Part shown: positions 5,135 through 23,417 of the stretch, one piece after another
Layout: each line of letters opens with the position of its first letter
How positions within the stretch are numbered: the first letter of the stretch is position 1
Assembly (NCBI GenBank): GCA_017521285.1
Contig: JAFXDG010000115.1
Location: 1-45,168 of the forward strand
DNA from: Bacteroidaceae bacterium
GTDB taxonomy: Bacteria; Bacteroidota; Bacteroidia; Bacteroidales; Bacteroidaceae
Direction of reading: 5' to 3'
Length of the DNA: 45,168 nucleotides
The notes under the pieces: model-generated
What the model saw: the letters and a program-made list of their open reading frames with translations, nothing else
The model's database searches: none
What the model was told of the DNA's origin: nothing
Position numbers and translations under genes: made by a program

Positions 5135-5159
5135 TTTTTTGTAATTGGGGGTTCAAAGT

Positions 5160-5342
5160 TTAAAGTTGAAAGGTCAAAGGTCGAAGGTCGAAGGTCAAAA
5201 GTCGAAAGTCAAAGGTCAAAAGTCGAAGGTTTCAAGCCATCGCCATTCGCCATCAGCCATCGCCATCAGCCATAGCCATTAGCCATCGCCATCTGCCATC
5301 GCCATTAGCCATCGCCATTAGCCATCGCCATTAGCCATAGTC
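5160..5342. repeat. GGTCGAAGGTC units followed by GCCATC hexamer array
   Basis: Tandem GGTCAAAGGTCGAAGGTC-type units run to about 5232. They are followed by degenerate hexamers GCCATC/GCCATT/GCCATA with interspersed AGCCAT to about 5338. The hexamer array runs into the 3' end of the PH-domain gene: its stop codon (minus-strand TAA at 5331-5333) and last codons are written in the repeat. Confidence 0.8.
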
Positions 5343-5732: not shown

Positions 5733-5751
5733 AGATAAGAATTTTGCCTGC

Positions 5752-5759
5752 AAAGATAC
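5752..5759 (-). promoter_or_regulatory. -7 box for the PH-domain gene
   Basis: TATCTTTG on the minus strand lies 20 nt before the ATG at 5732. It is back to back with the plus-strand box at 5780-5787, making a compact divergent promoter region. Confidence 0.5.
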
Positions 5760-5779
5760 GCCATTTCACCGATTATTCG

Positions 5780-5787
5780 TAGTTTTG
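5780..5787 (+). promoter_or_regulatory. -7 box for nadB
   Basis: TAGTTTTG matches TAnnTTTG and would give a leader of about 50 nt before the nadB ATG at 5842. No clear -33 TTTG is seen. Confidence 0.5.
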
Positions 5788-5841
5788 CGGCAGAATTAAG
5801 TTTGAAGAGACATCATTTGGTGTCCCCAAATATCTGTTTTT

Positions 5842-7413
5842 ATGGTAAGAAAGTATGATTTCTTAGTAATCGGCTCAGGATTGGCAGGCATGAGCTTTGC
5901 CTTGAAAGTAGCCCACAAGGGAACTGTAGCCCTTATTTGTAAAGCCGGATTGGAAGAGGCTAATACCTATTTTGCACAGGGAGGCATCGCCTCGGTGACC
6001 GACTTGGCGGTAGATAATTTCGAGAAACACATTGAGGATACCCTCATTGCCGGTGACCACATCAACGACCGTGCGGCGGTGGAAAAGGTTGTGCGTGGCG
6101 CCCCGGCCCAGATTAAGGAACTCATCAAATGGGGAGTGGACTTTGACAAGAAGTCCGACGGAACCTTTGATTTGCACAAGGAGGGCGGACACAGCGAATT
6201 CCGCATCCTGCACCACAAGGACAATACGGGTGCGGAGATACAGACATCGCTCATCGAAGCGGTGAAGGCACATCCCAACATCACCGTGCTTACCAACCAT
6301 TTTGCCGTGGAAATCATCACCCAGCACCACATGGGTATCATCGTAACCCGCTACACACAGGGAATCCGTTGCTACGGAGCATACGTGTTGAACGAAGAGA
6401 CGGGCGAAGTGGATACTTTCCTTTCCAAGGTCACTATCATGGCTACGGGCGGGTGTGAAGCCGTCTATCGTCAGACAACCAATCCGTTGGTGGCTACGGG
6501 CGATGGCATTGCGATGGTCTATCGTGCCAAGGGCGCAGTGAAGGATATGGAGTTCATCCAGTTCCATCCTACGGCTCTCTATCATCCGGGCGACCGGCCC
6601 GCCTATCTGATTACCGAGGCCATGCGTGGCTATGGCGGTGTGCTCCGCACGAAGGATGGCAAGGAGTTCATGCAGAAGTACGATCCCCGCCTGTCATTGG
6701 CTCCGCGTGATATCGTGGCCCGTGCCATCGATAATGAAATGAAGCATCGGGGCGACGAGCATGTCTATCTCGACGTGACGCACAAAGACCCGGAAGAGAC
6801 CAAAAGACATTTCCCCAATATCTATAAGAAGTGCCTCTCTATTGGCATCGACATCACCAAGGATTTCATTCCTGTGGCACCCGCGGCTCACTATCTGTGT
6901 GGCGGTATTGTGGTCGATCTTGACGGACAGAGCAGCATCCGTCGCTTGTATGCTATCGGCGAATGTTCGTGCACCGGTCTTCATGGTGGCAACCGTTTGG
7001 CCAGCAACTCGCTCATCGAGGCTGTGGTGTATGCCGATGCGGCGGCCAAGCATGTGCTGAGTGTCATCGACCGTTACGACTTCAACGAAGACATCCCCGA
7101 ATGGAACGACGAAGGAACCATCAGCAACGAAGAGCGTGTGCTTATCACCCAAAGCATGAAGGAGGTGAACCAAATCATGGAGGCGTATGTTGGTATTGTG
7201 CGTAGCAACACCCGACTGAAACGTGCCTGGAATCGCCTTGACATCCTGTATGAGGAGACCGAACGCCTGTTCAAGAGCAGCAAGGCCACCCGTGAATTGT
7301 GCGAATTGCGCAACATGATCAACGTTGGCTACCTCATCACCCGTCAGGCTATGGAGCGCAAGGAGAGCCGTGGTTTGCACTTCAGCATCGACTATCCGAA
7401 GGATAAAGGCTGA
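5842..7413 (+). CDS. nadB: L-aspartate oxidase
   Basis: This is a FAD-dependent oxidase converting L-aspartate to iminoaspartate, the first step of de novo NAD synthesis. The N-terminal dinucleotide-binding motif is IGSGLAGMS (about 11-19). TYFAQGGIASV, the HKEGGHSE region, QFHPTAL and the C-terminal LHGGNRLASNSLIE are typical of the succinate dehydrogenase/fumarate reductase flavoprotein family in its NadB branch. The length of 523 aa is normal and no quinolinate synthase or NadC gene is adjacent. The frame ends cleanly just before a repeat block. A fumarate reductase subunit is unlikely because no partner subunits are nearby and the protein is too short. Confidence 0.95.
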   Translation: MVRKYDFLVIGSGLAGMSFALKVAHKGTVALICKAGLEEANTYFAQGGIASVTDLAVDNFEKHIEDTLIAGDHINDRAAVEKVVRGAPAQIKELIKWGVDFDKKSDGTFDLHKEGGHSEFRILHHKDNTGAEIQTSLIEAVKAHPNITVLTNHFAVEIITQHHMGIIVTRYTQGIRCYGAYVLNEETGEVDTFLSKVTIMATGGCEAVYRQTTNPLVATGDGIAMVYRAKGAVKDMEFIQFHPTALYHPGDRPAYLITEAMRGYGGVLRTKDGKEFMQKYDPRLSLAPRDIVARAIDNEMKHRGDEHVYLDVTHKDPEETKRHFPNIYKKCLSIGIDITKDFIPVAPAAHYLCGGIVVDLDGQSSIRRLYAIGECSCTGLHGGNRLASNSLIEAVVYADAAAKHVLSVIDRYDFNEDIPEWNDEGTISNEERVLITQSMKEVNQIMEAYVGIVRSNTRLKRAWNRLDILYEETERLFKSSKATRELCELRNMINVGYLITRQAMERKESRGLHFSIDYPKDKG

Positions 7414-7600
7414 GGGTCAAAGGTCGAAGGTCGAAGGTCAAGGGTCGAAGGTCAAAAGTCTAAGGTCAAAGGTCTAAAGTCGAAGGTCAAAGGTCGGAGG
7501 TCAGAGGTTCCAAGTTTAAAGTTTCAGGTTTCAAGCCATCGCCATCAGCCATCGCCATCGCCATCAGCCATCGCCATCTGCCATCGCCATTAGCTATAGT
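7414..7600. repeat. GGTCGAAGGTC units followed by GCCATC hexamers
   Basis: This is the first part of a 317-bp gene-free stretch between nadB and the metal transporter. About 100 bp of GGTCAAAGGTCGAAGGTC-like units begin 1 nt after the nadB stop codon. They are followed by a short AAGTTTAAAGTTTCAGG section and then GCCATCGCCATCAGCC hexamers to about 7600. The order matches 5160-5342. Confidence 0.8.
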
Positions 7601-9541: not shown

Positions 9542-10435
9542 ATGAAAGCAATAAAATACCTGTTAGCCTGCTTGCTGCCATTGGCAGTGGCTTGCGGCTC
9601 GGACGACAACAACGATCCGATAGACAATCCCGAGAACAATCCTGTCGAAGTTCCCGACACAGTACCCGAAACCCCGCAGCGCGACTGGAAGCCCACCTTC
9701 TCGCGTGCCAGCTCTGCCAGCGCCACCGTGGCCGGCTTCACGGCTGCCGCGACGCGCGCGTTCCAGAGCGATATGGCCTACGATGGCACCCAGTGGGCCT
9801 GGACCGACGGCACCGCGCCTGCCCTTGGCGAGAGTGCGACCATCACCTGCACCTTGCCCGCCCTGAACGGAACGGCCAGCACGCGCTACTACTACAGCCC
9901 CTCGCAGAACGACCGCCTGCAGTGGGACTGCGTTGACGTGAGCGAGCAGAAGGAGGACAACAGCTTCCACTTCACCAACGTCACCCACCGCGTGGCACAG
10001 ATGCGCGTCATCGTCAACCGCTATTTCTTGGTCGATGAGCTGAAGGCCTACTGCTCACAGTACGGCTACTTCAACTGCCTCACCGGCATGTTCGACGAGG
10101 TTGCCTCCCCCACCGGTCGCAACGTGGTGCCACAGAGCGACGGCAACGGCAACTACATATACACCTTCACCATCGTGCCGCAGACCTTCAAGGCGGGCAC
10201 CACGCTGCTCACCTACAAGGATGTCTATAGCGACGGCTACTACACCTACCGCCACGTCCTCGACCGCGACATCACCATCGACCCCAACGAGCGTCTCGTA
10301 GTGGAAGCCACCTGGGGCGAGGACTGGGAAGGCGGTGAATATACCGAGACCCGCACCAATGTCGCCCTCTCCGTCACCGTAGCCGACTGGGAGGTGAACG
10401 AGACCATCGACGGCAGCGCCAGTGAGAACAACTAA
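9542..10435 (+). CDS. Fimbrillin-family surface lipoprotein
   Basis: This 297-aa protein has a type II signal ending LPLAVAC (Cys18). It is followed by GSDDNND, an acidic stretch of the kind that exports Bacteroidetes lipoproteins to the cell surface. Features shared with Mfa1/FimA-like fimbrillins are a TRA tripeptide (around Arg72), the strand HRVAQMRVIV, and the terminal strand LSVTVADWEVNETI, the region expected to take part in donor-strand exchange. It is the first of seven consecutive lipoprotein genes; the next starts 33 nt on. Assignment to the Mfa_like family is from pattern, not a search. It could be a structural subunit or a minor or anchor subunit. Confidence 0.75.
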   Translation: MKAIKYLLACLLPLAVACGSDDNNDPIDNPENNPVEVPDTVPETPQRDWKPTFSRASSASATVAGFTAAATRAFQSDMAYDGTQWAWTDGTAPALGESATITCTLPALNGTASTRYYYSPSQNDRLQWDCVDVSEQKEDNSFHFTNVTHRVAQMRVIVNRYFLVDELKAYCSQYGYFNCLTGMFDEVASPTGRNVVPQSDGNGNYIYTFTIVPQTFKAGTTLLTYKDVYSDGYYTYRHVLDRDITIDPNERLVVEATWGEDWEGGEYTETRTNVALSVTVADWEVNETIDGSASENN

Positions 10436-10468
10436 TCCATACTGATAAACAAAAAAAATACCACCATA

Positions 10469-12730
10469 ATGAAAAAGAACCTCATCACCCGCATTGGCCG
10501 CCTCATGGCGATGCCTTTGGCTGTTGCCGCATTGGTAGCGTGCAACGAAGAGAACATAGTTGACAACACCCAGATGGATGCCGTGGGCATCAGCGTCGCA
10601 ATGACCGGCACGGCCGAGACCGTGACCCGCGCCACTACCCTGCCCTCGGGCGACCTGAAGCTGCTGTACGGCTCCCTGACGTCGCTCCAGACGGCCATCT
10701 ACACCGGCAGCGGCACATCGTGGAGCAGCACCGCGCCGCTCTACTGGCAGCAGCTCGCCTCTGAGCAGGGCAAGTACCCCTTCTACGCCGTGTCGCCCTC
10801 CGATGCCGACATGACCGCCGTGCCCGCCGACCAGAGCACCGCCGACGCCGCCAAGGCCTCGGACCTGCTCATGGCCTTTGCCGAGCCCTCCTACAAGAGC
10901 ACCATCGCGCTCAACTTCCAGCACGCCCTCTCCATGGTGGAGGTGAACCTCACCAACGGCGGCGGCATGACCGATGCTGAGCTCTCCACCGCATTGCTCA
11001 CCATCGACGGCCTGCAGACCCAGTACACCGTAGCGGGCACCACCGCCACCGCATCGGGCACGGCCGCCAACGGCCTTATGCCCTTGAAGAACGGCGCCAA
11101 CTTCCAGTTCATCGCCCCGGCGCAGCAGCTGGCAACCAGTGGCCTGACGATGAACTTCACCGTCACCATCAACGGCGTGCCCGTGGTCTATACCTATCAG
11201 AACCCCGCCGACCTCACCCTCGTAGATGGCAAGAAGACCGTGTTCAACATCTCCGTGAGCAAGACCGCCATCCAGGTTGATGTCGCCGTGGAGGACTGGA
11301 CAACCGGTGAGAGCCGCAACGAGACTCTGACGATTGCCATCACCGGCACCGCCGATCAGGTGACCGGCACCGCCGGCAACATCACCGAGCTCCATATCAC
11401 TCCGTTTGCCGAGAAGCAGATAAGCAAGGAATATGCGGCTGCCAATACTCACCACACCTACACCAAGGGCAACGACGGCACCTGGACGAGCAACGACCCC
11501 ATCTACCTCGACAACCTCACCGCTGGCAGCGTGCTCTACGCCCTGGCCTACAACAAGGATGCCAACGGCAACCAGATTCAGGATGCCAAGACCCGGCTCA
11601 ATGACTTCCTCGGCACCGACGCCGTGAGCGTGAAGGGCGGCACAGCGGCCTTCACCCTCCGCCACCTGCTGGCACAGATGACTATTAATCTCGTGGCCGG
11701 CACGGGATTCTCTGCTGACCTCACTGATGCCACCATCAGCACCCCGACCATGACCTTCGAGCACAAGCTCGGCACCGATGCCAACGGCAACATGGTAATG
11801 AATGAGGTTACATCAAATAGCGGCAAATACGTGGACATCACCTCCGGCGCCACCCACATCGTCGTTCCCCAGACGCTTGCTGCCAACAGCATCTTCACCG
11901 TGACGCTTGCCAACGGCAACACCTACGAGGCGACACTCACCGAGGCCGTGACCCTCGCAGCCGGCGTGAACACCACCATCACCCTGACGCTGATGCCTAC
12001 CAAGGTGGGCGTGAGCGCAGCTGTCACCCCGTGGGGCGAGGCAGCCGCAGCGGCTACCGTGCAGTTGGCGGGCATCACTGCCGGTGATGTGTCTGTCACT
12101 GCAGCCGAAGGCGACCAACTCACTATTACCTACGCTCAGGACAACCTCACCGCCATCTACACTTATGCGAATAGTGCATGGGGAAGCACCGCACCGCTCT
12201 ATTGGGACGACATTACAAAGAGTACTTTTACTGGAAACTTTACCGCTGAGTATGTCTTTGCTACCAAGACCGTACCCGTGGAAGACAAGCTTGTGGGTAC
12301 CATTACCAATGCCGCCTATGGCAGCGCGTTGAGCTTCAATCTGGCACACACCACATCCAAGATGACCTTTACCTTCAAGGGCGACGGCACCACTACTACC
12401 GATGAGGAAGTGGCGGCCTTTACCAAGACCATCACATTGGGCGATGCCACACACACTATCATAGCCGATGCAATGCACTTCGCTCCCCAAGCCCTCACCG
12501 ATGACAACACCATCGTCCTGACTCGCCCCAATGGCAACACCTACACCGTGAAGCTCGGCGAGCTGAAGGATGCCCAGCAAGCTGCCATCTTTGGCACCAA
12601 CGGTATCGAGGCCGGCAAGCACTACCAGATAACCCTCACCGTGAACGAGACCTCGGTAGGCATCTCGGCCACCATTGCTGAGTGGACCGACGTCAGCGGC
12701 TCGGGCACTGTGACACCGGACTTCCAGTAA
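10469..12730 (+). CDS. Large fimbrillin-family lipoprotein with three tandem fimbrillin domains
   Basis: This is a 753-aa lipoprotein (lipobox ALVAC, Cys25, then NEEN) with a TRA site at Arg54. It appears to be three fimbrillin-like units in series. Each has a central strand motif (FQHALSMVEVNL, LRHLLAQMTINLV, LAHTTSKMTFTF) and ends with a related strand (VDVAVEDW near 270, VGVSAAVTPW near 512, VGISATIAEW near 729). Single fimbrillins are usually 300-450 aa, so this is a chain-like or stalk protein. The body is rich in Thr, Ala and Gly with low Lys. It is 24 nt upstream of the next gene. The function as a fimbrial component is inferred. Confidence 0.8.
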   Translation: MKKNLITRIGRLMAMPLAVAALVACNEENIVDNTQMDAVGISVAMTGTAETVTRATTLPSGDLKLLYGSLTSLQTAIYTGSGTSWSSTAPLYWQQLASEQGKYPFYAVSPSDADMTAVPADQSTADAAKASDLLMAFAEPSYKSTIALNFQHALSMVEVNLTNGGGMTDAELSTALLTIDGLQTQYTVAGTTATASGTAANGLMPLKNGANFQFIAPAQQLATSGLTMNFTVTINGVPVVYTYQNPADLTLVDGKKTVFNISVSKTAIQVDVAVEDWTTGESRNETLTIAITGTADQVTGTAGNITELHITPFAEKQISKEYAAANTHHTYTKGNDGTWTSNDPIYLDNLTAGSVLYALAYNKDANGNQIQDAKTRLNDFLGTDAVSVKGGTAAFTLRHLLAQMTINLVAGTGFSADLTDATISTPTMTFEHKLGTDANGNMVMNEVTSNSGKYVDITSGATHIVVPQTLAANSIFTVTLANGNTYEATLTEAVTLAAGVNTTITLTLMPTKVGVSAAVTPWGEAAAAATVQLAGITAGDVSVTAAEGDQLTITYAQDNLTAIYTYANSAWGSTAPLYWDDITKSTFTGNFTAEYVFATKTVPVEDKLVGTITNAAYGSALSFNLAHTTSKMTFTFKGDGTTTTDEEVAAFTKTITLGDATHTIIADAMHFAPQALTDDNTIVLTRPNGNTYTVKLGELKDAQQAAIFGTNGIEAGKHYQITLTVNETSVGISATIAEWTDVSGSGTVTPDFQ

Positions 12731-12754
12731 TTCACTATATATAATATAAGGAAT

Positions 12755-14722
12755 ATGAAAACGATAAATAACAGATACGCCACCCGTAGGGGCGAACCGA
12801 TGTGTTCGCCCAGATACCCCCACACGGTCGCCATGGAGGGCAGACACATCGGTCTGCCCCTACGGTGGATGAATGCCGTGGGCAGATACATCGGTCTTTT
12901 GGGCATACACATTGGTCTGCCCCTACTCTTCCTCGCCGCCTGCACCCAGGACGACATCGCCCCTGCGTACAACGACGCGCCCCTCACCATCACCGCCACC
13001 ATTCCGGGCGACGTGTGGGCCGTGGCAACACGTGCCGAGGGCGAGGGCACTGTGACATACTCCGACTGGACGCTGCACTACACCGACTACAACGGCAATC
13101 CTGCCAGCGGTACCTTGACCGCCACTTCGTCGCAGGACGGCACCTACACGCTCACCTCGGGCAGCGACCTGGTGTGGGCCAAGGTTCAGGACACGCAGGA
13201 TGCCGACGAGACCTTCCACCTCACCTGCGTGGGTTCCGACGGCGCGACCTACTATGCCACCACCACGGCGGCACATGGTGCGCTCACGGTGGCGTTCACC
13301 ACTGCGATGAAGCCCACCCTGGCAAAGCTCACCGTGAACTTCACGCTCTCGCACAACATGGCTCAGGTGGATTACAGCGACTTCACCATCTCCGTCACAG
13401 CCAAGGCGGCAAAGACTTCCACCGCCGACGAGGTGGTCTATTACCCGATGACCCACGGCGGCACATGGCCGGTTGCCGAGGGCGATGCCGCCACCACCGC
13501 CTTCACGCTTTCTCAGCAGTCTGCAGCCACTGGCACCTACACCATCACCGGTTCGATGCTCCTGCCCCAGCAGACGATGGGCGAGACCATGACCGTGGAA
13601 TACAACAACGGCACGGTCAACAACTTCGAGGACGACATTTCCTGGACGCTCGACCTCAGCGCCGTGGCTGTGACAGGCGGCGAGGAGGGTCAGAAGGCCA
13701 ACGAGCTCATTGCGGGCCAGCACCTGACGCTGAACCTCAAGGCAGGCCTCACCGCCATCAACATGCCCTCGGACATCCAGATTGAGGCATTCACCGCAGC
13801 CGACGCCGACAGCTACAACCCCGACCTTGGCGGCGTGGCCAAGACCTACGAGTACGATGCAGCCAACAATACCTATTATATCTATCACGAGAAGTGCATC
13901 GAGGCTGCTTTGGCGGACAGGGCGGCGAACCATCCCGAAGCGGCGGTTGTGAGCAAAGCCGCGACCTTGGCCGTAGTGAATGGAGCTGAGGCCGACCTCG
14001 CCACCATGCAGGCTGCCATCGCTGGCAAGACCACCATCTATGTGATGGGCACGGAGCTGGCGAAGTATATCGATGGAACCTTAGGAGATGAAACCCAGAC
14101 TGTGGTGGGCGAGGCTATCCGTACCAGTAAAGCGGCCAACGGCACCATCTCCCTCGTTATGCCCGAGGTTACCACGATAGGGGACTATGCCTTCAGATAC
14201 TGCTACGCCCTCACCAATGTGTCGCTGCCCAAGGCCACAACGATAGGGAACAGTGCCTTCTACTGGTGCATCTACCTCGCGAGCGTGTCGCTGCCCAAGG
14301 CCACAACGATAGGGGACTATGCCTTCTACCGCTGCATCTACCTCGCGAGCGTGTCGCTGCCCGAGGCCACAGAGATAGGGAAGGAGGCCTTCTCCTCCTC
14401 TGCCCTCACCTGCGTGTCGGCTCCCAAGGCCACAATGATAGGGGAGTATGCCTTCAGCTACTGCACCGACCTCACCAATGTGTCGCTGCCCGCGGCCACA
14501 TCGATAGGGGATGCTGCCTTCTGGAGCTGCTACGCCCTCACGAGCCTCACCTTCGGCTCGGTGATAGAGAGCGTGGGAACCGCTGCGTTCAAAGAATTCC
14601 CCACCGAGAACTGCGACCTCACCCTCGCCGCAGGGCAGGCATCGCACGCAACGTACCCGGCCGAGGAAGGAGAGAACAAGAGGTGGGCCTACTACACCTG
14701 GAAAAGCATCACGCTGAAATAA
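12755..14722 (+). CDS. Fimbrillin-BspA leucine-rich repeat lipoprotein with a REP-derived leader
   Basis: The 655-aa lipoprotein has a fimbrillin-like part (about 64-420, TRA at Arg93), a linker shared with its paralogues (about 420-470) and a BspA-like leucine-rich repeat array (about 471-615). A conserved tail ends YTWKSITL. The 62-residue leader is abnormal: residues 11-37 are encoded by a complete inverted pair of REP palindromes and 42-58 by two further REP halves. The hydrophobic core (RYIGLLGIHIGLPLLFLAAC, Cys63) is therefore REP sequence. Internal starts at Met27 or Met39 would give a normal-length signal made almost wholly of REP codons. BspA-type repeats usually mediate binding to host proteins or other bacteria. 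Confidence 0.82.
   Translation: MKTINNRYATRRGEPMCSPRYPHTVAMEGRHIGLPLRWMNAVGRYIGLLGIHIGLPLLFLAACTQDDIAPAYNDAPLTITATIPGDVWAVATRAEGEGTVTYSDWTLHYTDYNGNPASGTLTATSSQDGTYTLTSGSDLVWAKVQDTQDADETFHLTCVGSDGATYYATTTAAHGALTVAFTTAMKPTLAKLTVNFTLSHNMAQVDYSDFTISVTAKAAKTSTADEVVYYPMTHGGTWPVAEGDAATTAFTLSQQSAATGTYTITGSMLLPQQTMGETMTVEYNNGTVNNFEDDISWTLDLSAVAVTGGEEGQKANELIAGQHLTLNLKAGLTAINMPSDIQIEAFTAADADSYNPDLGGVAKTYEYDAANNTYYIYHEKCIEAALADRAANHPEAAVVSKAATLAVVNGAEADLATMQAAIAGKTTIYVMGTELAKYIDGTLGDETQTVVGEAIRTSKAANGTISLVMPEVTTIGDYAFRYCYALTNVSLPKATTIGNSAFYWCIYLASVSLPKATTIGDYAFYRCIYLASVSLPEATEIGKEAFSSSALTCVSAPKATMIGEYAFSYCTDLTNVSLPAATSIGDAAFWSCYALTSLTFGSVIESVGTAAFKEFPTENCDLTLAAGQASHATYPAEEGENKRWAYYTWKSITLK
12786..12926. 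repeat. REP pair plus two REP halves inside a coding sequence
   Basis: A plus-orientation REP (12786-12811; arms GGGCGAA/TTCGCCC) and a minus-orientation REP (12838-12863; arms GGGCAGAC/GTCTGCCC) are joined by a spacer. That spacer is clearly related to the ones between intergenic REP pairs (shared ATA..CCCAC..GG.C..CAT). The whole unit is 78 bp, in frame. Degraded or partial halves follow at 12880-12897 and 12901-12926. Confidence 0.85.
14168..14600 (+). repeat. BspA-like LRR array, about seven 66-bp units
   Basis: Units of 22 aa (pattern T-I-G-x-x-A-F-x-x-C-x-x-L-T-x-V-S-L-P-x-A) repeat about six to seven times. One unit is shortened (KEAFSSSALTCVS). The DNA is also highly repetitive (GTGTCGCTGCCC, ACGATAGGG), so the array is a likely substrate for slippage or recombination. 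Confidence 0.85.
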
Positions 14723-14740
14723 GTACTAACGAATAAAATC

Positions 14741-16627
14741 ATGAACGATATGAAAACAATGAATATCAAGAGTACAGATTACAGAGTACAGATTACAGAG
14801 AGTGGCTCTGTGCCCGGGTCTGTGCTCGCCGCCATCCGCAAGGCATCTGTACTCTGTACGCTGTGCTCTGTACTCTTGATTTCGTCGTGCACCCACGACG
14901 AAATCACTCCGCCCGTGAACACGACCAACGATGCGCTGGCACTCCTGCCGGGCGACACACGCGTGGGCATCAGTGCCGAGATTACAGATAACAGAGAACA
15001 GAGTACAGAGACGCGCGCCGAGGGCGACGAGTCGGCCACCACTTACTACGCATGGAACGAGCTGCACGAAACGAGCAACTTGGACTTCGTGCAGATGCTG
15101 CTGCCGGGCGGTGCGGACGGAAAGATGAATATCGCCAAGGCGAACTATGGCGGCAACCTCTCGGGGCTGAACGATGCCTTCGGACTGATGTTGAAGGACT
15201 TCAACCTCGTGCCCGACGGCACACGCCAGGTAAGTCGCTGGGCTGTCATGGAAGATGCGTTCATTAATAGCAACAACGTTGACCACTTGAAGGGCGCGGC
15301 ACGCCTCACGCTCAATGCCGAGACGCAGCAGCCCGAGCTGAACTTCACACTGATGCACTCGGGTGCCAAGCTCACCGTAAAGGTGGTGGATGCTGACGGC
15401 AACCCCATGCCCACCACAGGCATGACCGTGAAGGCTACCATGCAGGGTAATTCTTATAGCCTTATCTATGCCGAGCCTGCCACCCCCAGTGGATATTACA
15501 AGCACTTGATGTCCTATCTGCAAGGCATCACCTCGCTGGAGGCTGACGAGGCTGTGGATGCCGACAAAATCGTATGGGGGCTGGAAAAAGGCTCTATAAC
15601 GGAAGAGGTGGAGCTGAAGCCCCTTGTGGATGCCAGCGGTACTGCTGTAGCGGATAATACCTACAGCAATGTGGTGAGCGCGGTGGTGTATGCCACGCCT
15701 ACACACACCTCAGTAAAAGAGGATGGCGACAACATGAATTACTACACCCCCATCGAGGGCGGCCCGCAGTTCACCGATGCCGACAAGCTCACCATCAAGG
15801 TGCTTAAGGACCCCGACGGCGACGGCCCGCAGACCACGGGCACCTACTCGCTGAAGCTCTCCGAGGTGAAGCTCTCCGACACCGAGTACCTCACCGCACT
15901 GGAGCCGGGCAAGCACTACACCCTCACCGTCACCCTGCGCCACAACACCCTCGTTGCCGCCACCGCCACCATCGCCGCGTGGAGCACAACCAGTGCCAAC
16001 GCCAATATAGGGGGCGACGGGGCGAAGATTTACTCTTACGATGCCACGACCAAAACCTATACCATATTTGAAGAAGATGGCTTAGAGGCTGCTTTGGCGG
16101 ACAGGGCGAAGAACGACCCCGATGCCACTTCTACCGTGGTGATGAACGGCGTGACCATTGTCCCCAGCGGAACTTCTTTGAGCGGAATTCCTTTGAAGAT
16201 GGAAGACGGTAAACTCAAGATTGTTAACGTACCCGATTACATTTATGGTGATCACCTCCCCGCCATCATAGCAAATGGCAGCCTTTGCGTCAAGGTTGAC
16301 GGAACGTGCGGAGGAAAAACCTCTGGTATAAGAGATGAAGACATAAATAAAATGAAAAGCCCCATCCAATCCGCCATCGCTAAAGGTGTGACGGGCGTGT
16401 ATGTCACGGGTACGTATCTGACGAAGGTTGAAAAAGGAGTGTCAGGCTATAATATTGAAGGACCCCAAACCGTGTTAGGCATGGCTATCAGAGAGCAGAA
16501 TGTTGACGCTGGCACTATCAATGTCTTTCTGCCCGAAGTTGAGACTATACCGGATGGAGCCTTCAACTGGTGCTCTGTCATCATCATCCAGGAGAACATC
16601 GTCACCATACCAAGTACTAACCAATAA
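14741..16627 (+). CDS. Fimbrillin lipoprotein with a truncated BspA repeat tail
   Basis: The 628-aa lipoprotein has its lipobox at LLISSC (Cys50) followed by THDE, and a TRA site at Arg92. The body carries fimbrillin-like strands (LNFTLMHSGAKLTVKVVD) and the linker shared with the other BspA-like paralogues (KIYSYDATTKTY; VYVTGTYL; VLGMAIRE). It then enters the repeat region with FLPEVETIPDGAFNWC, but the array stops after about one unit. The last residues (PSTNQ) are read from the intergenic sequence that also precedes its own start. It therefore looks like a paralogue whose LRR array was deleted by recombination. The leader (10-48) is encoded by an inverted repeat, and a fragment of that repeat encodes residues 81-90. 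Confidence 0.8.
   Translation: MNDMKTMNIKSTDYRVQITESGSVPGSVLAAIRKASVLCTLCSVLLISSCTHDEITPPVNTTNDALALLPGDTRVGISAEITDNREQSTETRAEGDESATTYYAWNELHETSNLDFVQMLLPGGADGKMNIAKANYGGNLSGLNDAFGLMLKDFNLVPDGTRQVSRWAVMEDAFINSNNVDHLKGAARLTLNAETQQPELNFTLMHSGAKLTVKVVDADGNPMPTTGMTVKATMQGNSYSLIYAEPATPSGYYKHLMSYLQGITSLEADEAVDADKIVWGLEKGSITEEVELKPLVDASGTAVADNTYSNVVSAVVYATPTHTSVKEDGDNMNYYTPIEGGPQFTDADKLTIKVLKDPDGDGPQTTGTYSLKLSEVKLSDTEYLTALEPGKHYTLTVTLRHNTLVAATATIAAWSTTSANANIGGDGAKIYSYDATTKTYTIFEEDGLEAALADRAKNDPDATSTVVMNGVTIVPSGTSLSGIPLKMEDGKLKIVNVPDYIYGDHLPAIIANGSLCVKVDGTCGGKTSGIRDEDINKMKSPIQSAIAKGVTGVYVTGTYLTKVEKGVSGYNIEGPQTVLGMAIREQNVDAGTINVFLPEVETIPDGAFNWCSVIIIQENIVTIPSTNQ
14765..14880. repeat. Inverted GAGTACAGATTACAGAG repeat encoding a signal peptide
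   Basis: The left arm (14765-14800, repeated AGTACAGATTACAG) and the right arm (14847-14880, CTGTACTCTGT..CTGTACTCTTGAT) are inverted copies within the leader coding sequence. The left arm encodes IKSTDYRVQITE and the right arm encodes the hydrophobic SVLCTLCSVLLI. The copy at 16656-16771 is nearly identical. Confidence 0.8.
14878..14905. repeat. Perfect 12-bp hairpin across the lipobox
   Basis: GATTTCGTCGTG (14878-14889) and CACGACGAAATC (14894-14905) are perfect inverted complements with a CACC loop. They encode the end of the lipobox and the acidic export signal (ISSC-THDEI). The identical hairpin occurs at 16769-16796. Confidence 0.85.
14981..15010 (+). repeat. Fragment of the ACAGAG repeat inside a coding sequence
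   Basis: ATTACAGATAACAGAG and ACAGAGTACAGAG units are read in frame as ITDNREQSTE, immediately before the TRA tripeptide of the gene at 14741. It is the same family as the leader repeat but outside it. Confidence 0.7.
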
Positions 16628-16796
16628 AATCATGAACGATATGAAAACAATGAATATCAAGAGTACAGATTACAGAGTACAGATTACAGAGAGTGGCTCT
16701 GTGCCCGGGTCTGTGCTCACCGCCATCCGCAAGGCATCTGTACTCTGTACGCTGTGCTCTGTACTCTTGATTTCGTCGTGCACCCACGACGAAATC
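16612..16796 (+). repeat. 185-bp leader duplication, copy 2
   Basis: This is the second copy of the block at 14721-14905, including the last codons and stop of the preceding gene, the start codon at 16632, the inverted-repeat leader (16656-16771) and the lipobox hairpin (16769-16796). I count two mismatches over 185 bp. Confidence 0.9.
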
Positions 16797-18692
16797 ATCC
16801 CACCCACTCCCCTCGCGCCGCAAGGCACGAAGACCGTCACCGTGGACTTCCAGCTGCCCGAGGGCAAACCGGGGTTTGGGGAAGTAGAGACCCGTGCTAC
16901 TACTACCGACGCCTCTTGGGCCGACGGCGACGAGCTGCTGATGAAAATCATAGTCAAAGGCTTCGATGACACGGATAGCTATGCCGTGTACGAAAGCTAC
17001 ATGATGCTGGCCTACGACGATTCCGACGACGATTCCGACGGCTATTGGAACATGTTGGAGGACAAGAGCACCACAGTGCTGGAGGTGGCATCCTCCTTCG
17101 TCGCCAATCCCGACTACGTGATGCTGGCGCAGACCACGGACATCGACCTCACCCAGCCCCTCAGCATCAAGGTGCCCGAGGACATGTCGCTGGACATGAC
17201 GATAGTCTCTGTGACCTACGCCCCCGATCTGGAGTGGGACATCACCCCCGATGCCAATGGAGCAGTGACGGACATCAAACGCAAGCTGAAGGCCACTGCC
17301 ACCACCACAGCACCCGAGTGTTGGGAGGTCAGCAGTGGTGAATGGAGCACCAACCAGGCCCGCCTGCGCGTGAATACTGGCGCGGCTGGCGACGTGGTGA
17401 CGATCACCTCAGAGAACTTCTATCCGAATAGTATAGAAGAGTCTGCCGACGGCATCTACACCGCCACCACCGACGCCGACGGCAACGCCTACTTCTACGG
17501 CGAAGCAGGCTCTTACGACGATAGCGATAGAATAACAGCCACCACCAGCGGCTTCAACCTCTCGCTCACGGCCGTAACGGTGGGCGAGGGCAACGCAGCG
17601 TTCACCTACCACATCGCACCCGTCACCCTGCTCGAGGCTTCCACCCTCGTGCCCGTGCAGCTCGTGGGGGGCATGAGCTACTGCCTCGATGCTACCGAGA
17701 AGCGCACGGCGGTGCCGAACACCATTGCGAAGATTGACGGAGCGTCCACCGACCTCGCCACCGTGAAGACTAATATAGAACAACTGCTCGCCGCTGGAAA
17801 GACCACCCTCGTGGTGACGGGCAAGGCGCTGGCGCCGTATAGCAATGAAAACAGCGAAAAAGAAGCCAAGACCGTGGTGGGCGAGGCCATCCGCCAGCTG
17901 GAGACGAGCACTACCTTTTCCATCGTGCTGCCCGATGCCACATCGATTGGGGAAAAAGCCTTCAACGGCTGCACCGCCCTCACGATCGTGTCGCTGCCCG
18001 CGGCCGAAACGATAGGGGACTATGCCTTCTACGCCTGCACCGCCCTCACGATCGTGTCGCTGCCCGCGGCCACCACGATAGGGTACAGTGCCTTCAACGG
18101 CTGCGACGCCCTCACGAGCGTGTCGCTGCCCGCGGCCACCACGATAGGGGACAGTGCCTTCAACGGCTGCGACGCCCTCACGAGCGTGTCGCTGCCCGCG
18201 GCCACCACGATAGGGGAACAAGCCTTCGACGATTGCGCCCTCACGAGCGTGTCGCTGCCCGTGGCCATCACGATAGGGGACTATGCCTTCCAATACTGCA
18301 CCGCCCTCCAGAGCGTGTCGCTGCCCGCGGCCACAACGATAGGGAACAGTGCCTTCTCCCGCTGCACCGCCCTCACGAGCGTGTCGCTGCCCGTGGCCAT
18401 CACGATAGGGGAAAGTGCTTTCTTCGGCTGCGACGCCCTCAAGAGCCTGTCGCTGCCCGCGGCCACATCGATAGGGAACTATGCCTTCCAGCAGTGCACC
18501 GACCTCACGAGCCTCACTTTCGGATCGGTGATAGAGAGTGTGGGCTATTTAGCATTCAGCTCAGTGAATGAGAACAAATGGACCCTCAACTGCGACCTCA
18601 CCCTCGCCGCAGGGCAAATGGTTATGGAAGGAGAGAACATGACGTGGGCAGACATGATCTGGAAGAGCATCACGCTGGTCGACAGTAACTGA
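16632..18692 (+). CDS. Fimbrillin-BspA leucine-rich repeat lipoprotein with the longest array
   Basis: The start is at 16632 (MNDMKTMN), 4 nt after the previous stop, because the leader then matches the paralogue at 14741; the frame remains open further upstream without meaning. The lipobox is LLISSC (Cys50) with THDE after it and a TRA site at Arg88. An N-terminal fimbrillin-like part of about 310 residues leads into the shared linker (IDGASTDLATVK; TLVVTGKAL; VVGEAIRQ). About ten 22-aa BspA-type repeats follow (about 436-643), then a tail ending WKSITL. The total is 686 aa. It is expected at the cell surface as an adhesin or fimbrial tip-like protein, by analogy with BspA. Confidence 0.84.
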   Translation: MNDMKTMNIKSTDYRVQITESGSVPGSVLTAIRKASVLCTLCSVLLISSCTHDEIIPPTPLAPQGTKTVTVDFQLPEGKPGFGEVETRATTTDASWADGDELLMKIIVKGFDDTDSYAVYESYMMLAYDDSDDDSDGYWNMLEDKSTTVLEVASSFVANPDYVMLAQTTDIDLTQPLSIKVPEDMSLDMTIVSVTYAPDLEWDITPDANGAVTDIKRKLKATATTTAPECWEVSSGEWSTNQARLRVNTGAAGDVVTITSENFYPNSIEESADGIYTATTDADGNAYFYGEAGSYDDSDRITATTSGFNLSLTAVTVGEGNAAFTYHIAPVTLLEASTLVPVQLVGGMSYCLDATEKRTAVPNTIAKIDGASTDLATVKTNIEQLLAAGKTTLVVTGKALAPYSNENSEKEAKTVVGEAIRQLETSTTFSIVLPDATSIGEKAFNGCTALTIVSLPAAETIGDYAFYACTALTIVSLPAATTIGYSAFNGCDALTSVSLPAATTIGDSAFNGCDALTSVSLPAATTIGEQAFDDCALTSVSLPVAITIGDYAFQYCTALQSVSLPAATTIGNSAFSRCTALTSVSLPVAITIGESAFFGCDALKSLSLPAATSIGNYAFQQCTDLTSLTFGSVIESVGYLAFSSVNENKWTLNCDLTLAAGQMVMEGENMTWADMIWKSITLVDSN
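17940..18560 (+). repeat. BspA-like LRR array, about ten 66-bp units
   Basis: Consecutive units begin IGEKAF, IGDYAF, IGYSAF, IGDSAF, IGEQAF, IGDYAF, IGNSAF, IGESAF and IGNYAF, with a degenerate last unit VGYLAF. Units three and four are almost identical at the DNA level. The fifth is one codon short (FDDCALTSV). Confidence 0.88.
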
Positions 18693-18693
18693 A

Positions 18694-18827
18694 ACTCCTC
18701 CCCTAAGTTAGGGGAGGTCCCAAAGGGGGAGGGGTCTGTGAGAACAGCTACGATAACCGCCGTTGACAGACCCCGTTGACAGACCCCCTCCTCCTTCGGG
18801 TACTCCCCCTAACTTAGGGGGAGAGTT
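18694..18827. repeat. Inverted pair of CTCCTCCCCTAAGTTAGGGG elements
   Basis: The forward copy (18694-18737: palindrome CCCCTAAGTTAGGGG, then GGGGGAGGGGTCT) and an inverted copy (18781-18827: AGACCCCCTCC, then CCCCCTAACTTAGGGGG) face each other within the 261-bp gap of the lipoprotein cluster. Two GTTGACAGACCCC units lie between. The region can fold as nested hairpins and may attenuate transcription between the genes at 16632 and 18954. The remaining gap to 18953 shows nothing recognisable. Confidence 0.8.
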
Positions 18828-18953
18828 AAGGAGAACCTAACATAGGGGAGCAATCCCGAGAAACAAAAAAACGCATTAACTGACAAAAAGCAACCAAATG
18901 ACAGGGAGAATAACTCAGAGACCTTAGAAATCTCCCAAATCAAAAAAACGATA

Positions 18954-20036
18954 ATGACAATGAAAAAGAAGAATATAATGAACAACGAATCCGCCAAGGG
19001 CAGGCACATCGGTCTGCCCCTACGGTGGATGACTATGATGATGGCCGCCCTCGCCTTCACCGCCTGCTCCAACGACGACGACACCCTCACCGCCGAGCAG
19101 GAAATCACCCTCACCACCCCCGTCATCCAGCTCAGCGGCGTGCAGGCAAGCACCCGTGCGGTGCAGGACATGGCCGACGTGGCGAGCGGAGCTCTCGTCA
19201 GCCTTTACCTGCACGACAGCGAGGCGAGGGAGTACAATCAGAATCGCGCGGGCAATTATGTGCTCAACGACCCCAACAGCTGGAGGGTCAACGAGTCTGT
19301 CACCGTCACCGGTGGCGAGGGACACTACCGCGCCGGTGTCTTTGCCAACATCAGCTTGAATGCCACTGCTGACATGTCCGAAATCCGCGATGCCGTCTAT
19401 GCCTACCGCGGCAGCGTGAACGTCAAGGCCGACGGCACCTTCACCCCCGACGGCACACTGCAGCCCCACTCCGCCGCCGTGCTCCTCAATCTGAAGGATG
19501 CAGATGGCAATGCCATCTACCCGGATGGAACCGATGCCACCAGCGGCAAGGAGAATTGGAATGTGTACCTCATCAAGCCCGTAGGGCTCGCCCATATGAA
19601 TGGCTTCGTCCCGACAGATGCCGACGGCCAGTACTTCCCCAACGGCACCGCCGACCCCGTGCCCAATGCCAACACGTGGCCGGCCTATTATCTGAGCACT
19701 GCTAATGGCAACTACACCCCCGGCACCTATCCCGCCACATGGGAGAACAACGTGCTCGTGACCTCGGCCGTCCCAGGCAGCGCCTGGCCCCTCTTCGAAG
19801 TCACCTACTGCAAGGACGGCTTCAAATTGAGCGACGACACATCTGACTACGTGCCCCTCGGCACCGCCACCACCTGGACGGTCAGATACCCCCGCGAGCA
19901 GCAGCTCACCCTCGAGGCCGGCAAGCTCTACACCTTCACCGCCGCCCTGGGTGCCGACGCATATATCTCCATCAAGGCCAGTGACGTGAGCATCAGCGAC
20001 TGGATCGAAGGCGAGACCATCAATGTAGGACGTTAA
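18954..20036 (+). CDS. Fimbrillin-family lipoprotein with a REP half in its leader
   Basis: The 360-aa lipoprotein has Cys38 (ALAFTAC) followed by SNDDD, a clear acidic surface-export signal, and a TRA site at Arg68. The body has fimbrillin-like features: the acid-rich N-terminal strand EQEITLTTPVIQL, Y-rich loops, and a terminal strand DVSISDWIEGETI. Residues 15-24 (KGRHIGLPLR) are encoded by a REP half, inserted between the MKKK start and the MMMAALAFTAC end that the next gene also has. Without the insert the leader would match that paralogue. An ATG downstream of the REP would leave too short and uncharged a signal. It lies 12 nt upstream of the next gene. Confidence 0.8.
   Translation: MTMKKKNIMNNESAKGRHIGLPLRWMTMMMAALAFTACSNDDDTLTAEQEITLTTPVIQLSGVQASTRAVQDMADVASGALVSLYLHDSEAREYNQNRAGNYVLNDPNSWRVNESVTVTGGEGHYRAGVFANISLNATADMSEIRDAVYAYRGSVNVKADGTFTPDGTLQPHSAAVLLNLKDADGNAIYPDGTDATSGKENWNVYLIKPVGLAHMNGFVPTDADGQYFPNGTADPVPNANTWPAYYLSTANGNYTPGTYPATWENNVLVTSAVPGSAWPLFEVTYCKDGFKLSDDTSDYVPLGTATTWTVRYPREQQLTLEAGKLYTFTAALGADAYISIKASDVSISDWIEGETINVGR
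18998..19023 (-). repeat. REP half inside the leader of the lipoprotein at 18954
   Basis: This is a minus-orientation REP with arms GGGCAGGC/GTCTGCCC and the flanking GGTGGATGA also seen after the REP at 12838-12863. It is read in frame as GRHIGLPLR, the same peptide as in the gene at 12755. Confidence 0.85.
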
Positions 20037-20048
20037 ACCATATATAAG

Positions 20049-22070
20049 ATGAACGATATGAAAAAGAAGATAATGACCATGGCGATGATGGCCCTCGCCT
20101 TCACCGCCTGTACCAAAGAAGACCTCATGCCACCCACCCAAGGCGATGCCGGTACGCTCCACATCACCAGCGTCACCATCGACGGACAGCAGGTGGCACG
20201 CACACGCATGGTGGCCGACGACGGAGAGTACATCATGAGCGAGTTGCCCTACAATCAGTCCTTCAACGGGTTCGCAGCGGGGGACTGGCTGAAGCTGGAT
20301 ATCTATAACTTATACGCTGAAGATACTTACAACAGTGATTTCAAAGCCACCTATGGTAACGAAGGCTGGTCGATAGGCGGTCATCTGCGGCCTATAAAGG
20401 GCATGACGTGGGCAGATGTCGGCCTCAAAGCCGGAATTAGCGTTGACCGAATAATGGGAGGAACTGAAAAGTACTCTACTCATGCCGATAACATGGGCGT
20501 AGTGCAGGGCGACATCGACGAGAGCAACTCCTACATCTATGGCGACTGGCTCACTGCCGAAACAAACAATGGCACCATCACCATCGACACCGACGTGAAG
20601 AGCCCCACCCTGGGCGCCGTCACCATTCGGCTGAAGCACGCCTATGCGCTGCTGCGCCTGCCCCAGTCGGCAGCCAACGTAACCCCCGGCACCTACATCG
20701 TGAATGGCACGGCACACAACGTCACCGGCCTCGGCACCCTGTGGGCAGTGCTGAACATGAGCAGCACGAGCGAGGGTGAAGATGAAACAGCGACCACCAC
20801 ATCCACCACCATCTACTGCCCCCTCACCAAGGTAACGATAGGCGAAGCTGACTTCCTGCAAGCCATCGTCCCCGCCGACAATGAGGGCGACTACACCCTC
20901 ACCGGCTTCAAGGCCGTGATGTTGACAGAGGAGAGTGGAGCGAGCGGCGAGGAGACAACTCAGAACTCAGAACTCACAACTCAGAACTCTCTCACCCTTG
21001 ACTTGCCCTTCAAGGTAGGCACTGAGAACTCCTCCCCTGAGTCAGAGGAGGTGCCGCAGGCGGAGGGGTATGCCCTCCAGCCCAACCATCAGTATCCGTT
21101 GACGCTGAATATCGCCCCCCACACAGCCAGTGTCACCCTCTCCAGCCCACAGGGCAAGCCCGGCTGGGGCACCGATGAAGATGAAGAGGAGCTGAGCAAC
21201 GAGATGAACGAGATAGTCGTGATTGACGGAACTGACACCGATGTAGCCACCGTAAAGGCCCAGATAGAAACCGCCCTCGCTGCAGGGAAGAGCACCATCT
21301 ACGTGACGGGCGAGATGCTGGAAGCGTACAGCAACGGTACTGCCAAGTCCGTAGTGGGCGAAGCCATCTGTCTGCTGGCGGAGGGAACCACTGTTTCCCT
21401 CCTGCTGCCCGAGGCTACAATGATTGGGGAGAAAGCCTTCTACAGCTGCACCGCCCTCAAGAGCGTGTCGGCTCCCAAGGCCACAATGATAAGGAGGGAG
21501 GCCTTCCACAGCTGCACCGCCCTCACGAGCGTGGAGCTGCCCGCGGCCACATCGATAGGGGAACTTGCCTTCCAAGACTGCAGCGTCCTCACGAGCGTAT
21601 CGGCTCCCAAGGCCACATCGATAGGGGAAAGTGCCTTCAGAAACTGCAGCGCCCTCGAGAGCGTGTCGCTGCCCGCGGCCACATCGATAGGGGATGCTGC
21701 CTTCAGCCGCTGCGGCGCCCTCGAGAGCGTGTCGGCTCCCAAGGCATTAACTATAGGGGATAGTGCCTTCGATTACTGCAACTCCCTCACCAGCGTGTCG
21801 CTGCCCGAGGCCACATCGATAGGGATGTATGCCTTCTACAACTGCACCGCCCTCACGAGCCTCACCTTCGGCTCGGTGATTACGAGCGTGGGCAACAATG
21901 CATTCCTAAAATTCCCCACCGAGAACTGCGCCCTCACCCTCAACAGCGGCCAGCAGAACAGCACGGTTCCCGTAAGTACGGACGAGGACGGAAATCCGAC
22001 CTGGGCAGGCTATACCTGGGCGAGCATCAGCTATGTGGACGACGATGGCAATGCCGTGGAGGGTAACTAA
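20049..22070 (+). CDS. Fimbrillin-BspA leucine-rich repeat lipoprotein
   Basis: The 673-aa lipoprotein has a short normal leader (MNDMKKKIMTMAMMALAFTA, Cys21) followed by TKED. Instead of TRA it has RTRM near Arg53. The fimbrillin-like part runs to about 375 and has the strand RLKHAYALLRL. The shared linker follows (IDGTDTDVATVK; TIYVTGEML; VVGEAICL), then about eight BspA-type repeats (455-617) and a tail ending YTWASISYVDDD. Two intergenic-type repeats are read in frame within the fimbrillin part, at about residues 303-314 (TTQNSELTTQNS) and 327-341 (NSSPESEEVPQAEGY). It is the last gene of the cluster; the REP/RAYT region follows at once. Confidence 0.84.
   Translation: MNDMKKKIMTMAMMALAFTACTKEDLMPPTQGDAGTLHITSVTIDGQQVARTRMVADDGEYIMSELPYNQSFNGFAAGDWLKLDIYNLYAEDTYNSDFKATYGNEGWSIGGHLRPIKGMTWADVGLKAGISVDRIMGGTEKYSTHADNMGVVQGDIDESNSYIYGDWLTAETNNGTITIDTDVKSPTLGAVTIRLKHAYALLRLPQSAANVTPGTYIVNGTAHNVTGLGTLWAVLNMSSTSEGEDETATTTSTTIYCPLTKVTIGEADFLQAIVPADNEGDYTLTGFKAVMLTEESGASGEETTQNSELTTQNSLTLDLPFKVGTENSSPESEEVPQAEGYALQPNHQYPLTLNIAPHTASVTLSSPQGKPGWGTDEDEEELSNEMNEIVVIDGTDTDVATVKAQIETALAAGKSTIYVTGEMLEAYSNGTAKSVVGEAICLLAEGTTVSLLLPEATMIGEKAFYSCTALKSVSAPKATMIRREAFHSCTALTSVELPAATSIGELAFQDCSVLTSVSAPKATSIGESAFRNCSALESVSLPAATSIGDAAFSRCGALESVSAPKALTIGDSAFDYCNSLTSVSLPEATSIGMYAFYNCTALTSLTFGSVITSVGNNAFLKFPTENCALTLNSGQQNSTVPVSTDEDGNPTWAGYTWASISYVDDDGNAVEGN
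20955..20990 (+). repeat. AACTCAGAACTCA tandem inside a coding sequence
   Basis: ACAACTCAGAACTCAGAACTC units are read in frame as TTQNSELTTQNS. It resembles the loose, short-unit intergenic repeats elsewhere in the window but occurs in the gene at 20049. Confidence 0.65.
21028..21071 (+). repeat. CTCCTCCCC-type element inside a coding sequence
   Basis: This aligns without gaps to the intergenic element at 18694-18737 over 44 bp with about eight mismatches, and is read in frame as NSSPESEEVPQAEGY. The mismatches spoil the internal palindrome (CCCCTGAGTCAGAGG), so it is older or selected as protein. Confidence 0.75.
21415..21905 (+). repeat. BspA-like LRR array, about eight 66-bp units
   Basis: Units start IGEKAF, IRREAF, IGELAF, IGESAF, IGDAAF, IGDSAF and IGMYAF, with a terminal VGNNAF. 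Two versions of the second strand alternate, V-S-L-P and V-S-A-P-K, more regularly than in the array at 17940. Confidence 0.87.
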
Positions 22071-22118
22071 AGCCGATTACAAATCCATCGTAACTTTGCG
22101 GTTTCATCCATGCCCGCC

Positions 22119-22195
22119 GTAGGGGCGGACCGATGTGTCCGCCCTGATATGCCCACGTGGACATCATTCGGGCAGACACACCGGTCTGCCCCTAC
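22119..22195. repeat. REP pair (BIME-like) 1
   Basis: The plus REP is 22119-22144 (arms GGGGCGGAC/GTCCGCCC around CGATGT) and the minus REP is 22170-22195 (arms GGGCAGACA/GTCTGCCCC). A 25-nt spacer separates them, giving 77 bp in all. Confidence 0.9.
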
Positions 22196-22306
22196 GGTGG
22201 TTGGTTGGATGGAACCTCCAACGGTTTCGAAAACATTTACGCGTATGCCCGCAAGGTTGGATGGTACCGTCAACGGTCCCGCAAGATATCGATGCGTATG
22301 CCCGCC

Positions 22307-22383
22307 GTAGGGGCGGACCGATGTGTCCGCCCTGATATGCCCACACGGACATCATTCGGGCAGACACGCCGGTCTGCCCCTAC
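22307..22383. repeat. REP pair (BIME-like) 2
   Basis: It has the same organisation and the same 77-bp length as the pair at 22119-22195, with only scattered base differences (ACACGG for ACGTGG in the spacer, CACGCC for CACACC in the minus REP loop). Confidence 0.9.
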
Positions 22384-22514: not shown

Positions 22515-23048
22515 ATGCCGTACAATCCCGACATCCATCACCGTCGTTCCATTCGTCTGCCCGAATACGACTATGCCGCTCCGGGTTTCTATTTCGTCAC
22601 CCTTTGTGTGCACGGACGGCTTCCCCTGTTGGGTGCCATCGCCGACGGTACGGTACACCTGAATGCCGCCGGACGGATGGTGGAGGAATGGTACCATCGG
22701 TGCGCCGAACATTTTCCCGATATCGAATGTCTGGAAATGGTCGTTATGCCCAACCATTTCCATTGCATCTGGCATAATACCGGCATCGATGCCGATGCCA
22801 ATCATACGTTATCGGGCGAACACACCGGTTCGCCCCTACAGCGGGTGGTACAATGGTTCAAGACGATGACTACCAACGCCTACATCCGTGGCGTGGAACA
22901 ACACGGTTGGCCGACGTTTGACACCCGCCTTTGGCAACGCAATTATTACGAACACATCATCCGCGACCAGCAATCGTATGAAGAAATCGTCACCTATATT
23001 TTGGAAAACCCCTTGCGATGGCACGACGACAAATTGTATGTCCCGTGA
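22515..23048 (+). CDS. REP-associated tyrosine transposase (RAYT, IS200-like HUH family)
   Basis: This is a 177-aa single-strand DNA nuclease of the Y1 HUH superfamily. The HUH motif is MPNHFHCIW (His81 and His83). The likely catalytic tyrosine is Tyr161 in VTYILENP, which aligns with the VDYIYINP context of the E. coli RAYT tyrosine. WQRNYYEHIIRD (140-151) is also family-typical. The start at 22515 is chosen because the family begins close to a Y-x-x-x-G-x-Y/W-F-V-T strand (here GFYFVTL); an ATG 22 codons upstream lies in repeat sequence. It is flanked on both sides by REP pairs, its presumed substrates. A REP half is read in frame at residues 100-109. Confidence 0.93.
   Translation: MPYNPDIHHRRSIRLPEYDYAAPGFYFVTLCVHGRLPLLGAIADGTVHLNAAGRMVEEWYHRCAEHFPDIECLEMVVMPNHFHCIWHNTGIDADANHTLSGEHTGSPLQRVVQWFKTMTTNAYIRGVEQHGWPTFDTRLWQRNYYEHIIRDQQSYEEIVTYILENPLRWHDDKLYVP
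22814..22839 (-). repeat. REP half inside the RAYT coding sequence
   Basis: This minus-orientation REP has arms GGGCGAAC/GTTCGCCC and is followed by CTAC. It is read as SGEHTGSPLQ between the HUH motif and the catalytic tyrosine. The arms match the 12786-12811 REP variant (GGGCGAA/TTCGCCC) rather than those of its own flanking pairs. Confidence 0.85.
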
Positions 23049-23097
23049 ATGCCTGTATGGGCGATGATTCCGAGGTACATCCATGCGTATGCCCGCC

Positions 23098-23108: not shown

Positions 23109-23152
23109 TGATACCGTCAACGGTTCCGAGACCATCCACGCGGATGCCCGCT

Positions 23153-23229
23153 GTAGGGGCGGACCGATGTGTCCGCCCTGATATATCCACGCGGACATCA
23201 TTCGGGCAGACACACCGGTCTGCCCCTAC
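23153..23229. repeat. REP pair (BIME-like) 3, downstream of RAYT
   Basis: The plus REP is 23153-23178 and the minus REP 23204-23229, again 77 bp in total. A GGATGGAACC-type 45-bp unit follows, as on the left side of the transposase gene. Confidence 0.9.
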
Positions 23230-23340: not shown

Positions 23341-23417
23341 GTAGGGGCGGACCGATGTGTCCGCCCTGATATACCCACGCGGATGCCATTCGGGCAGACA
23401 CGCCGGTCTGCCCCTAC
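23341..23417. repeat. REP pair (BIME-like) 4
   Basis: The plus REP is 23341-23366 and the minus REP 23392-23417, 77 bp in total. This is the last REP of the region and directly precedes a 19-bp-stem terminator-like hairpin. Confidence 0.9.

Follow-up and report, generated by a model that had tools for sequence, protein, structure and literature searches.

The leader of a predicted surface lipoprotein gene of a Bacteroidaceae bacterium (gene 12755; genes are named here by their first position) contains a complete inverted pair of REP sequences followed by two further REP halves, all of them lying after the start and before the lipobox. The DNA itself shows the repeats with their position and frame, the lipobox and a predicted hairpin, and the ORF is open from its first methionine (Met1), from which it would be translated, through the in-frame REPs. 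We consider it probable that a REP pair was captured in this leader, that it is read from Met1 and that it contributes to an export signal ending at Cys63. REPs are mainly thought of as non-coding. If the leader of gene 12755 is translated and working, its export signal derives from a RAYT-type repeat, and this would provide a concrete route for the origin and spread of surface-protein leaders.

The analysed stretch of DNA (45,168 nt, hereafter the window) corresponds to contig C5 of a draft assembly that totals 3.38 Mb in 141 contigs and is approximately 86% complete; a plasmid search gave no match. Its gene content, with Mfa-like fimbrillins and BspA-type LRR lipoproteins, suggests a member of the Bacteroidales. 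Seven consecutive lipoprotein genes extend from 9542 to 22070, with a RAYT gene next to them. The spacing within this cluster is mostly 4–33 nt, the exception being 261 nt upstream of gene 18954. Repeat sequence is present in the leaders of four of the seven genes (12755, 18954, 14741 and 16632); the last three of these leaders, as well as the REPs within the RAYT gene and within a gene of contig C116, had been missed in the original prediction. The coordinates of the features are given in Table 1.

Table 1. Repeat-containing leaders, REP sequences and associated genes (positions in the window unless a contig is named).
Feature	Position	Strand	Remarks
Predicted surface lipoprotein gene, repeat-built leader	12755..14722	+	655 aa, BspA-type LRR_5 domain, Cys63
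Start region MKTINNRYA	12755..12781	+	little structure; context like that of 14741 around Met4
REP half 1, GTAG end first	12786..12811	+	encodes RRGEPMCSP
REP half 2, inverted	12838..12863	-	read on +: GRHIGLPLR
REP half 3, truncated	12880..12897	-	17/18; encodes GRYIGL, start of hydrophobic core
REP half 4	12901..12926	-	24/26; encodes GIHIGLPLL of hydrophobic core
Lipobox LAAC	12932..12943	+	
Lipoprotein gene, different hairpin leader	14741..16627	+	7-bp repeat GAGTACA/GATTACA, inverted arms
Lipoprotein gene, near-identical hairpin leader	16632..18692	+	194 nt, 97% to 14741
Second lipoprotein gene with leader REP half	18954..20036	+	Cys38
REP half in 18954 leader	18998..19023	-	25/26; reads GRHIGLPLR, same peptide as in 12755
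Lipoprotein gene, leader free of these repeats	20049..22070	+	Cys21; within-cluster comparison
Intergenic REP pair 1	22119..22195	.	77 bp
Intergenic REP pair 2	22307..22383	.	77 bp
RAYT (REP-associated tyrosine transposase) gene	22515..23048	+	
REP half inside RAYT coding sequence	22814..22839	-	reads GEHTGSPLQ
Intergenic REP pair 3	23153..23229	.	77 bp
Intergenic REP pair 4	23341..23417	.	77 bp
857-aa gene with in-frame REP pair	L111 (G000:C116) 4744-7314	minus	

The repeats have the hallmarks of GTAG REPs/REPINs: a GTAG-footed palindrome, head-to-head pairs and several dispersed copies. Thirteen exact REP halves (7 forward, 6 reverse), with inverted pairs among them, were found in the genome, compared with 0 for the control, and few are located off contig C5 (one half on C59 and one pair on C116). 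One REP pair was predicted to fold at -58.2 kcal/mol (z -6.9). The genome also contains a candidate cognate RAYT (22515-23048), whose product matched NF047646 REP_Tyr_transpos with an E value of 1.6e-18 (67 bits; curated cut-off 80) and Y1_Tnp with one of 1.5e-4 (22.4 bits; cut-off 23), both bit scores being lower than the cut-offs. As originally predicted, four intergenic 77-bp REP pairs are present near this gene, two on each side, and their co-location suggests that the REPs may be mobilised by this RAYT. The flanking pairs lie within a larger module with a 188-bp repeat spacing (22110-22480 and 23060-23430), with TTGGATGGAACC-type stretches between the pairs.

Compared by motifs, the RAYT may be related to the subclass 2.4 REPtrons, which passages of PMC6006769 define by NH[IFV]H, a YIxNNP-like tyrosine motif and a REP between them: it carries PNHFH and YILENP (NNP in the published motif), with a REP half in between. 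The RAYTs of two other genomes (L086 of G008 and L129 of G073) have full REP pairs at the matching place. The published description likewise includes GTAG REPs flanking the RAYT gene and an in-frame REP inside it; however, it concerns a transposase gene, whereas gene 12755 encodes a predicted host surface protein.

Within the leader of gene 12755, pattern matches delimited a GTAG-type REP pair with a total length of 78 bp. In BLAST comparisons this pair showed 83–85% identity to the four RAYT-flanking pairs (E 1.5e-19 to 1.3e-17), and its spacer, longer by one base, aligns throughout with the sibling spacers. The claim of an intragenic 78-bp pair with a homologous spacer was thus confirmed by pattern, BLAST and alignment. 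The two additional halves (12880 and 12901) predicted to encode GRYIGL and GIHIGLPLL before LAAC were confirmed as well: none of 2000 base shuffles of the leader region reached the number of matching bases of half 3 and none of 2000 that of half 4 (best values 13 and 18, respectively). The three halves of the same orientation begin at 12838, 12880 and 12901, i.e. at spacings of 42 and 21 nt, and therefore share one reading frame. A length divisible by three, which had also been taken as evidence of capture, was rejected as proof, because 76-bp pairs occur in frame in ORFs of genome G008 (loci L087 and L095; one ORF with an ABC transporter domain and one with an AcrB-family domain), outside the best-matched stretches. 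In L087 and L095 the REP pairs adjoin other short-repeat peptides.

By simple criteria, the leader has the composition of a lipoprotein (SPII) signal peptide: a charged n-region, a hydrophobic core and LAAC with its cysteine. The hydropathy of the core, calculated for a hand-chosen window, is 1.98, compared with 1.47–2.38 for five cluster genes. The proposal that the export signal is built of REPs was supported for halves 3 and 4, which make up most of the predicted hydrophobic core; the pair itself mainly lengthens the n-region.

Six of the 13 exact REP halves are intragenic: gene 12755 has three, the RAYT gene one and the 857-aa gene of contig C116 two. A paralogue of the C116 gene in the same genome (contig C35, 71% identity) has no REP pair. 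In an alignment of the C116 gene, this paralogue and five relatives (7 of the 15 loci fetched), the REP segment was absent from the other six sequences, and the most distant relative (L197) has an unrelated longer stretch at this site. The paralogue and relatives lacking the REP make in-frame capture in a variable loop of the C116 gene a well-supported interpretation of the alignment, and this pair provides a precedent, within the same genome, for capture in gene 12755.

The original prediction proposed Met27 and Met39 as possible new starts. The calculated cost of opening the start region was 2.2–6.2 kcal/mol for Met1, varying with the flank and similar to the values for first starts in other cluster genes, compared with 18.6–23.5 kcal/mol for Met27 and 26.8–29.2 kcal/mol for Met39, which lie inside or against the hairpin; these values speak against new internal starts. 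Met1 is located 24 nt from the preceding stop and Met39 138 nt, with 4–33 nt for cluster neighbours, and the context of Met1 (ATATGAAAAC) is like that of 14741 around Met4. All four RAYT-flanking pairs carry CCCTGATAT in the spacer, which corresponds to TGA in the frame of 12755, whereas the leader copy has CCCAGATAC, the replacement of TGA by AGA being one of the features that distinguish it from all four siblings. A 77-bp copy, when translated (one copy), contained a stop in each of the two frames used in 12755. Provided that the inserted copy resembled those flanking the RAYT gene, and other things being equal, both the extra base and AGA for TGA would be required to bring Met1 and the protein body into one frame. 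Accessibility, position, context and frame thus favour translation from Met1. The idea that a hairpin element was captured as codons remains the best-supported reading, with export a predicted consequence.

The position of the cysteine counts against a leader started at Met1. Cys63 is far beyond the usual range: in 22 of 25 leaders examined (drawn from the window, the C116 locus and loci belonging to two Pfam families; 20049 and 16632 escaped the filter) the cysteine is at 15–35, the others being 18954, 14741 and 12755 at 38, 50 and 63, respectively. A further leader sample also took in REP-hit loci. Were the REP pair an untranslated 5′ leader RNA and Met39 the start (MNAVGRYIGLLGIHIGLPLLFLAAC), the cysteine would be at 25, an ordinary signal-peptide length, and only the last two halves would serve as codons. 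Such an arrangement has parallels, as most N-terminal REP cases were suspected to be untranslated in passages of the survey of Di Nocera et al. 2013 (PMC3733652), and in four loci of relatives (L072, L073, L078 and L119) an in-frame REP lies just upstream of a likelier-looking start. Nevertheless, the opening cost of Met39, its distance from the preceding stop, the resemblance of the Met1 context to that of 14741 and the dependence of the Met1 frame on the additional base and the loss of TGA make this explanation unlikely.

The hairpin may instead act mainly as RNA, influencing stability or translation rate in the operon mRNA, with the peptide incidental. The leaders of 14741 and 12755 are very stably folded (z -6.6 and -5.7, respectively, versus codon-order shuffles; the next of the 25 leaders has -1.9), two unrelated repeats give rise to hairpins beginning approximately 18–25 nt past the start, and, according to work cited in passages of PMC6006769, both the stability and the translation of mRNA can be influenced by REPs. 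However, the half-REP leader of 18954 is only weakly more folded than its shuffles (z -1.2 with codon-order shuffles; -2.3 when a slightly different stretch was compared with dinucleotide shuffles), and a purely RNA role leaves the kept reading frame unexplained, so that we judge this role quite improbable. Repeats occur inside other genes, both here and in relatives, and the searches described below gave no orthologue and hence no conservation to cite, as would be expected if the leader were neutral debris that is tolerated, or if the gene were not expressed or its product not exported. This seems very improbable given the intact 655-aa ORF with its LRR_5 domain (E 3.5e-46) and the presence of both lipobox and hydrophobic core.

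The favoured course of events, with capture in the leader and reading from Met1, would comprise (i) insertion of a RAYT-type REP pair into a surface lipoprotein gene, downstream of the start codon and upstream of the lipobox, (ii) copying of the 3′ half of the inserted pair twice in tandem and (iii) reading of the whole stretch from Met1 in a single frame. The n-region encoded by the pair would then be long and positively charged, and most of the core before LAAC would come from halves 3 and 4. Sec would use the leader, and lipoprotein signal peptidase would remove it at Cys63.

The REP half of gene 18954 most likely shares its origin with the leader of 12755 through recombination between neighbours. 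The proteins have GRHIGLPLRWM in common, and the nucleotide identity (97% over 36 nt) reaches into the flank GGTGGATGA; the ends of five other window copies of this repeat family, in or flanking the RAYT gene, differ from that flank. A match that includes a flank absent from the other five copies indicates that the two leaders probably had one origin. The effect of the REP in 18954 is a longer n-region; the core of this leader, AALAFTAC, is like that of the neighbouring gene 20049.

The leader repeat of 14741 was predicted to fold at -60.8 kcal/mol (z -6.8 versus dinucleotide shuffles). The possibility that it is another REP was rejected, as its 16-base pattern is confined in this genome to 14741 and 16632; among 15 genus genomes it was found elsewhere only in G005, at a site in no ORF longer than 120 aa. 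The 5′ arm codes largely for hydrophilic residues and the 3′ arm for hydrophobic ones in both 12755 and 14741, with mostly one codon-pairing register. This arm pattern is seen in two unrelated families of one cluster, REP (12755) and the 7-bp repeat (14741, 16632), which is too few to call it a rule. A generalization in which signal peptides of this lineage can readily arise from inverted-repeat DNA that lands downstream of a start codon, the 5′ arm giving the hydrophilic n-region and the 3′ arm the hydrophobic core, and in which neighbours exchange leaders, is offered tentatively and appears rather doubtful.

No orthologues of 12755, and hence no REP-free ancestral form, were found in 14 other genus genomes, the sole outside matches being four REP-peptide matches in G008, and contig scans with the N-terminal 383 aa (21 stretches) and the 70-aa leader (60 stretches) yielded none that was confirmed. 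Gene 18954 had weak matches in two of 250 other family genomes (G040 and G023), in whose leaders no REP-like peptide was seen by eye. Of 399 family genomes, 24 contain the plain REP pattern, this genome among them. A screen for further REP-containing leaders covered, among the matches listed, 123 loci (some overlapping; 122 from other genomes; a selection of the listed sites) with 235 loosely matched REP heads (≤3 substitutions; overlapping heads count double). It took in ORFs from 180 aa upwards, and a REP near an N-terminus had to be followed by 80 aa or more, so that short or contig-cut genes escaped it; the G008 RAYT was dropped, and most of the long ORFs are putative genes. By eye, none of the 122 listed loci from other genomes looked like a lipoprotein gene with a REP between the likely start and the lipobox, suggesting that leader capture is rare and, in the data examined, confined to this genome.

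In-frame REPs and a predicted signal peptide derived partly from a mobile repeat are already published; the use of a REP as a lipoprotein signal peptide was not found in searches of open-licence PMC papers. The intragenic GTAG REPs described in passages of PMC3733652 are, like those of 12755, GTAG palindromes, often in inverted pairs and in frame, some of them N-terminal. Gene 12755 differs in that the repeat fills the signal-peptide core and the evidence on the start favours translation; neither "signal peptide" nor "lipoprotein" appears in the main text of that survey. The present case thus bears on a point left by it, namely whether 5′-end REPs act as codons or as untranslated RNA. In Yersinia YPO1552 (Delihas 2007, PMC2759123), a MITE (RU-2/YAPL) constitutes residues 1-30 of a predicted 41-residue signal peptide. 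This element is not a REP, the relevant passages describe neither tandem copies nor a second family in neighbours, and "lipoprotein" is absent from the main text.

Rickettsia palindromic elements are likewise in-frame palindromes, some of them N-terminal, but they represent another, mostly longer element and are not described as signal peptides in the corresponding passages of PMC10969869, PMC2229807 and PMC3733652. In Borrelia, stem loops specific to the IS200/IS605 family are found at lipoprotein genes, as here; according to passages of PMC2775950 they are placed at or downstream of the 3′ ends, whereas the repeats of 12755 are in the leader.

Other short repeats were observed in and beyond the window. 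Tandem 7-bp repeats (GAGTACA/GATTACA, CAGAACT) occur in lipoprotein coding sequence at 14768-14880, 16659-16771, 14980-15010 and 20961-20989; since slippage by 7 would shift the frame, phase variation of these genes is possible. Dense short-unit arrays (GCCATC, TTGATGCG and CATATTGG types) are located near several gene borders (5140-5340, 7400-7600, 23526-23744, 24602-24800 and 42680-43380). On contig C48 of the same genome (L180, approximately 215-305; G000:C48), another lipoprotein leader (MKRVKSEERRVKNGVLCTLC...) has an n-region formed by a GAAGAGT-type tandem repeat.
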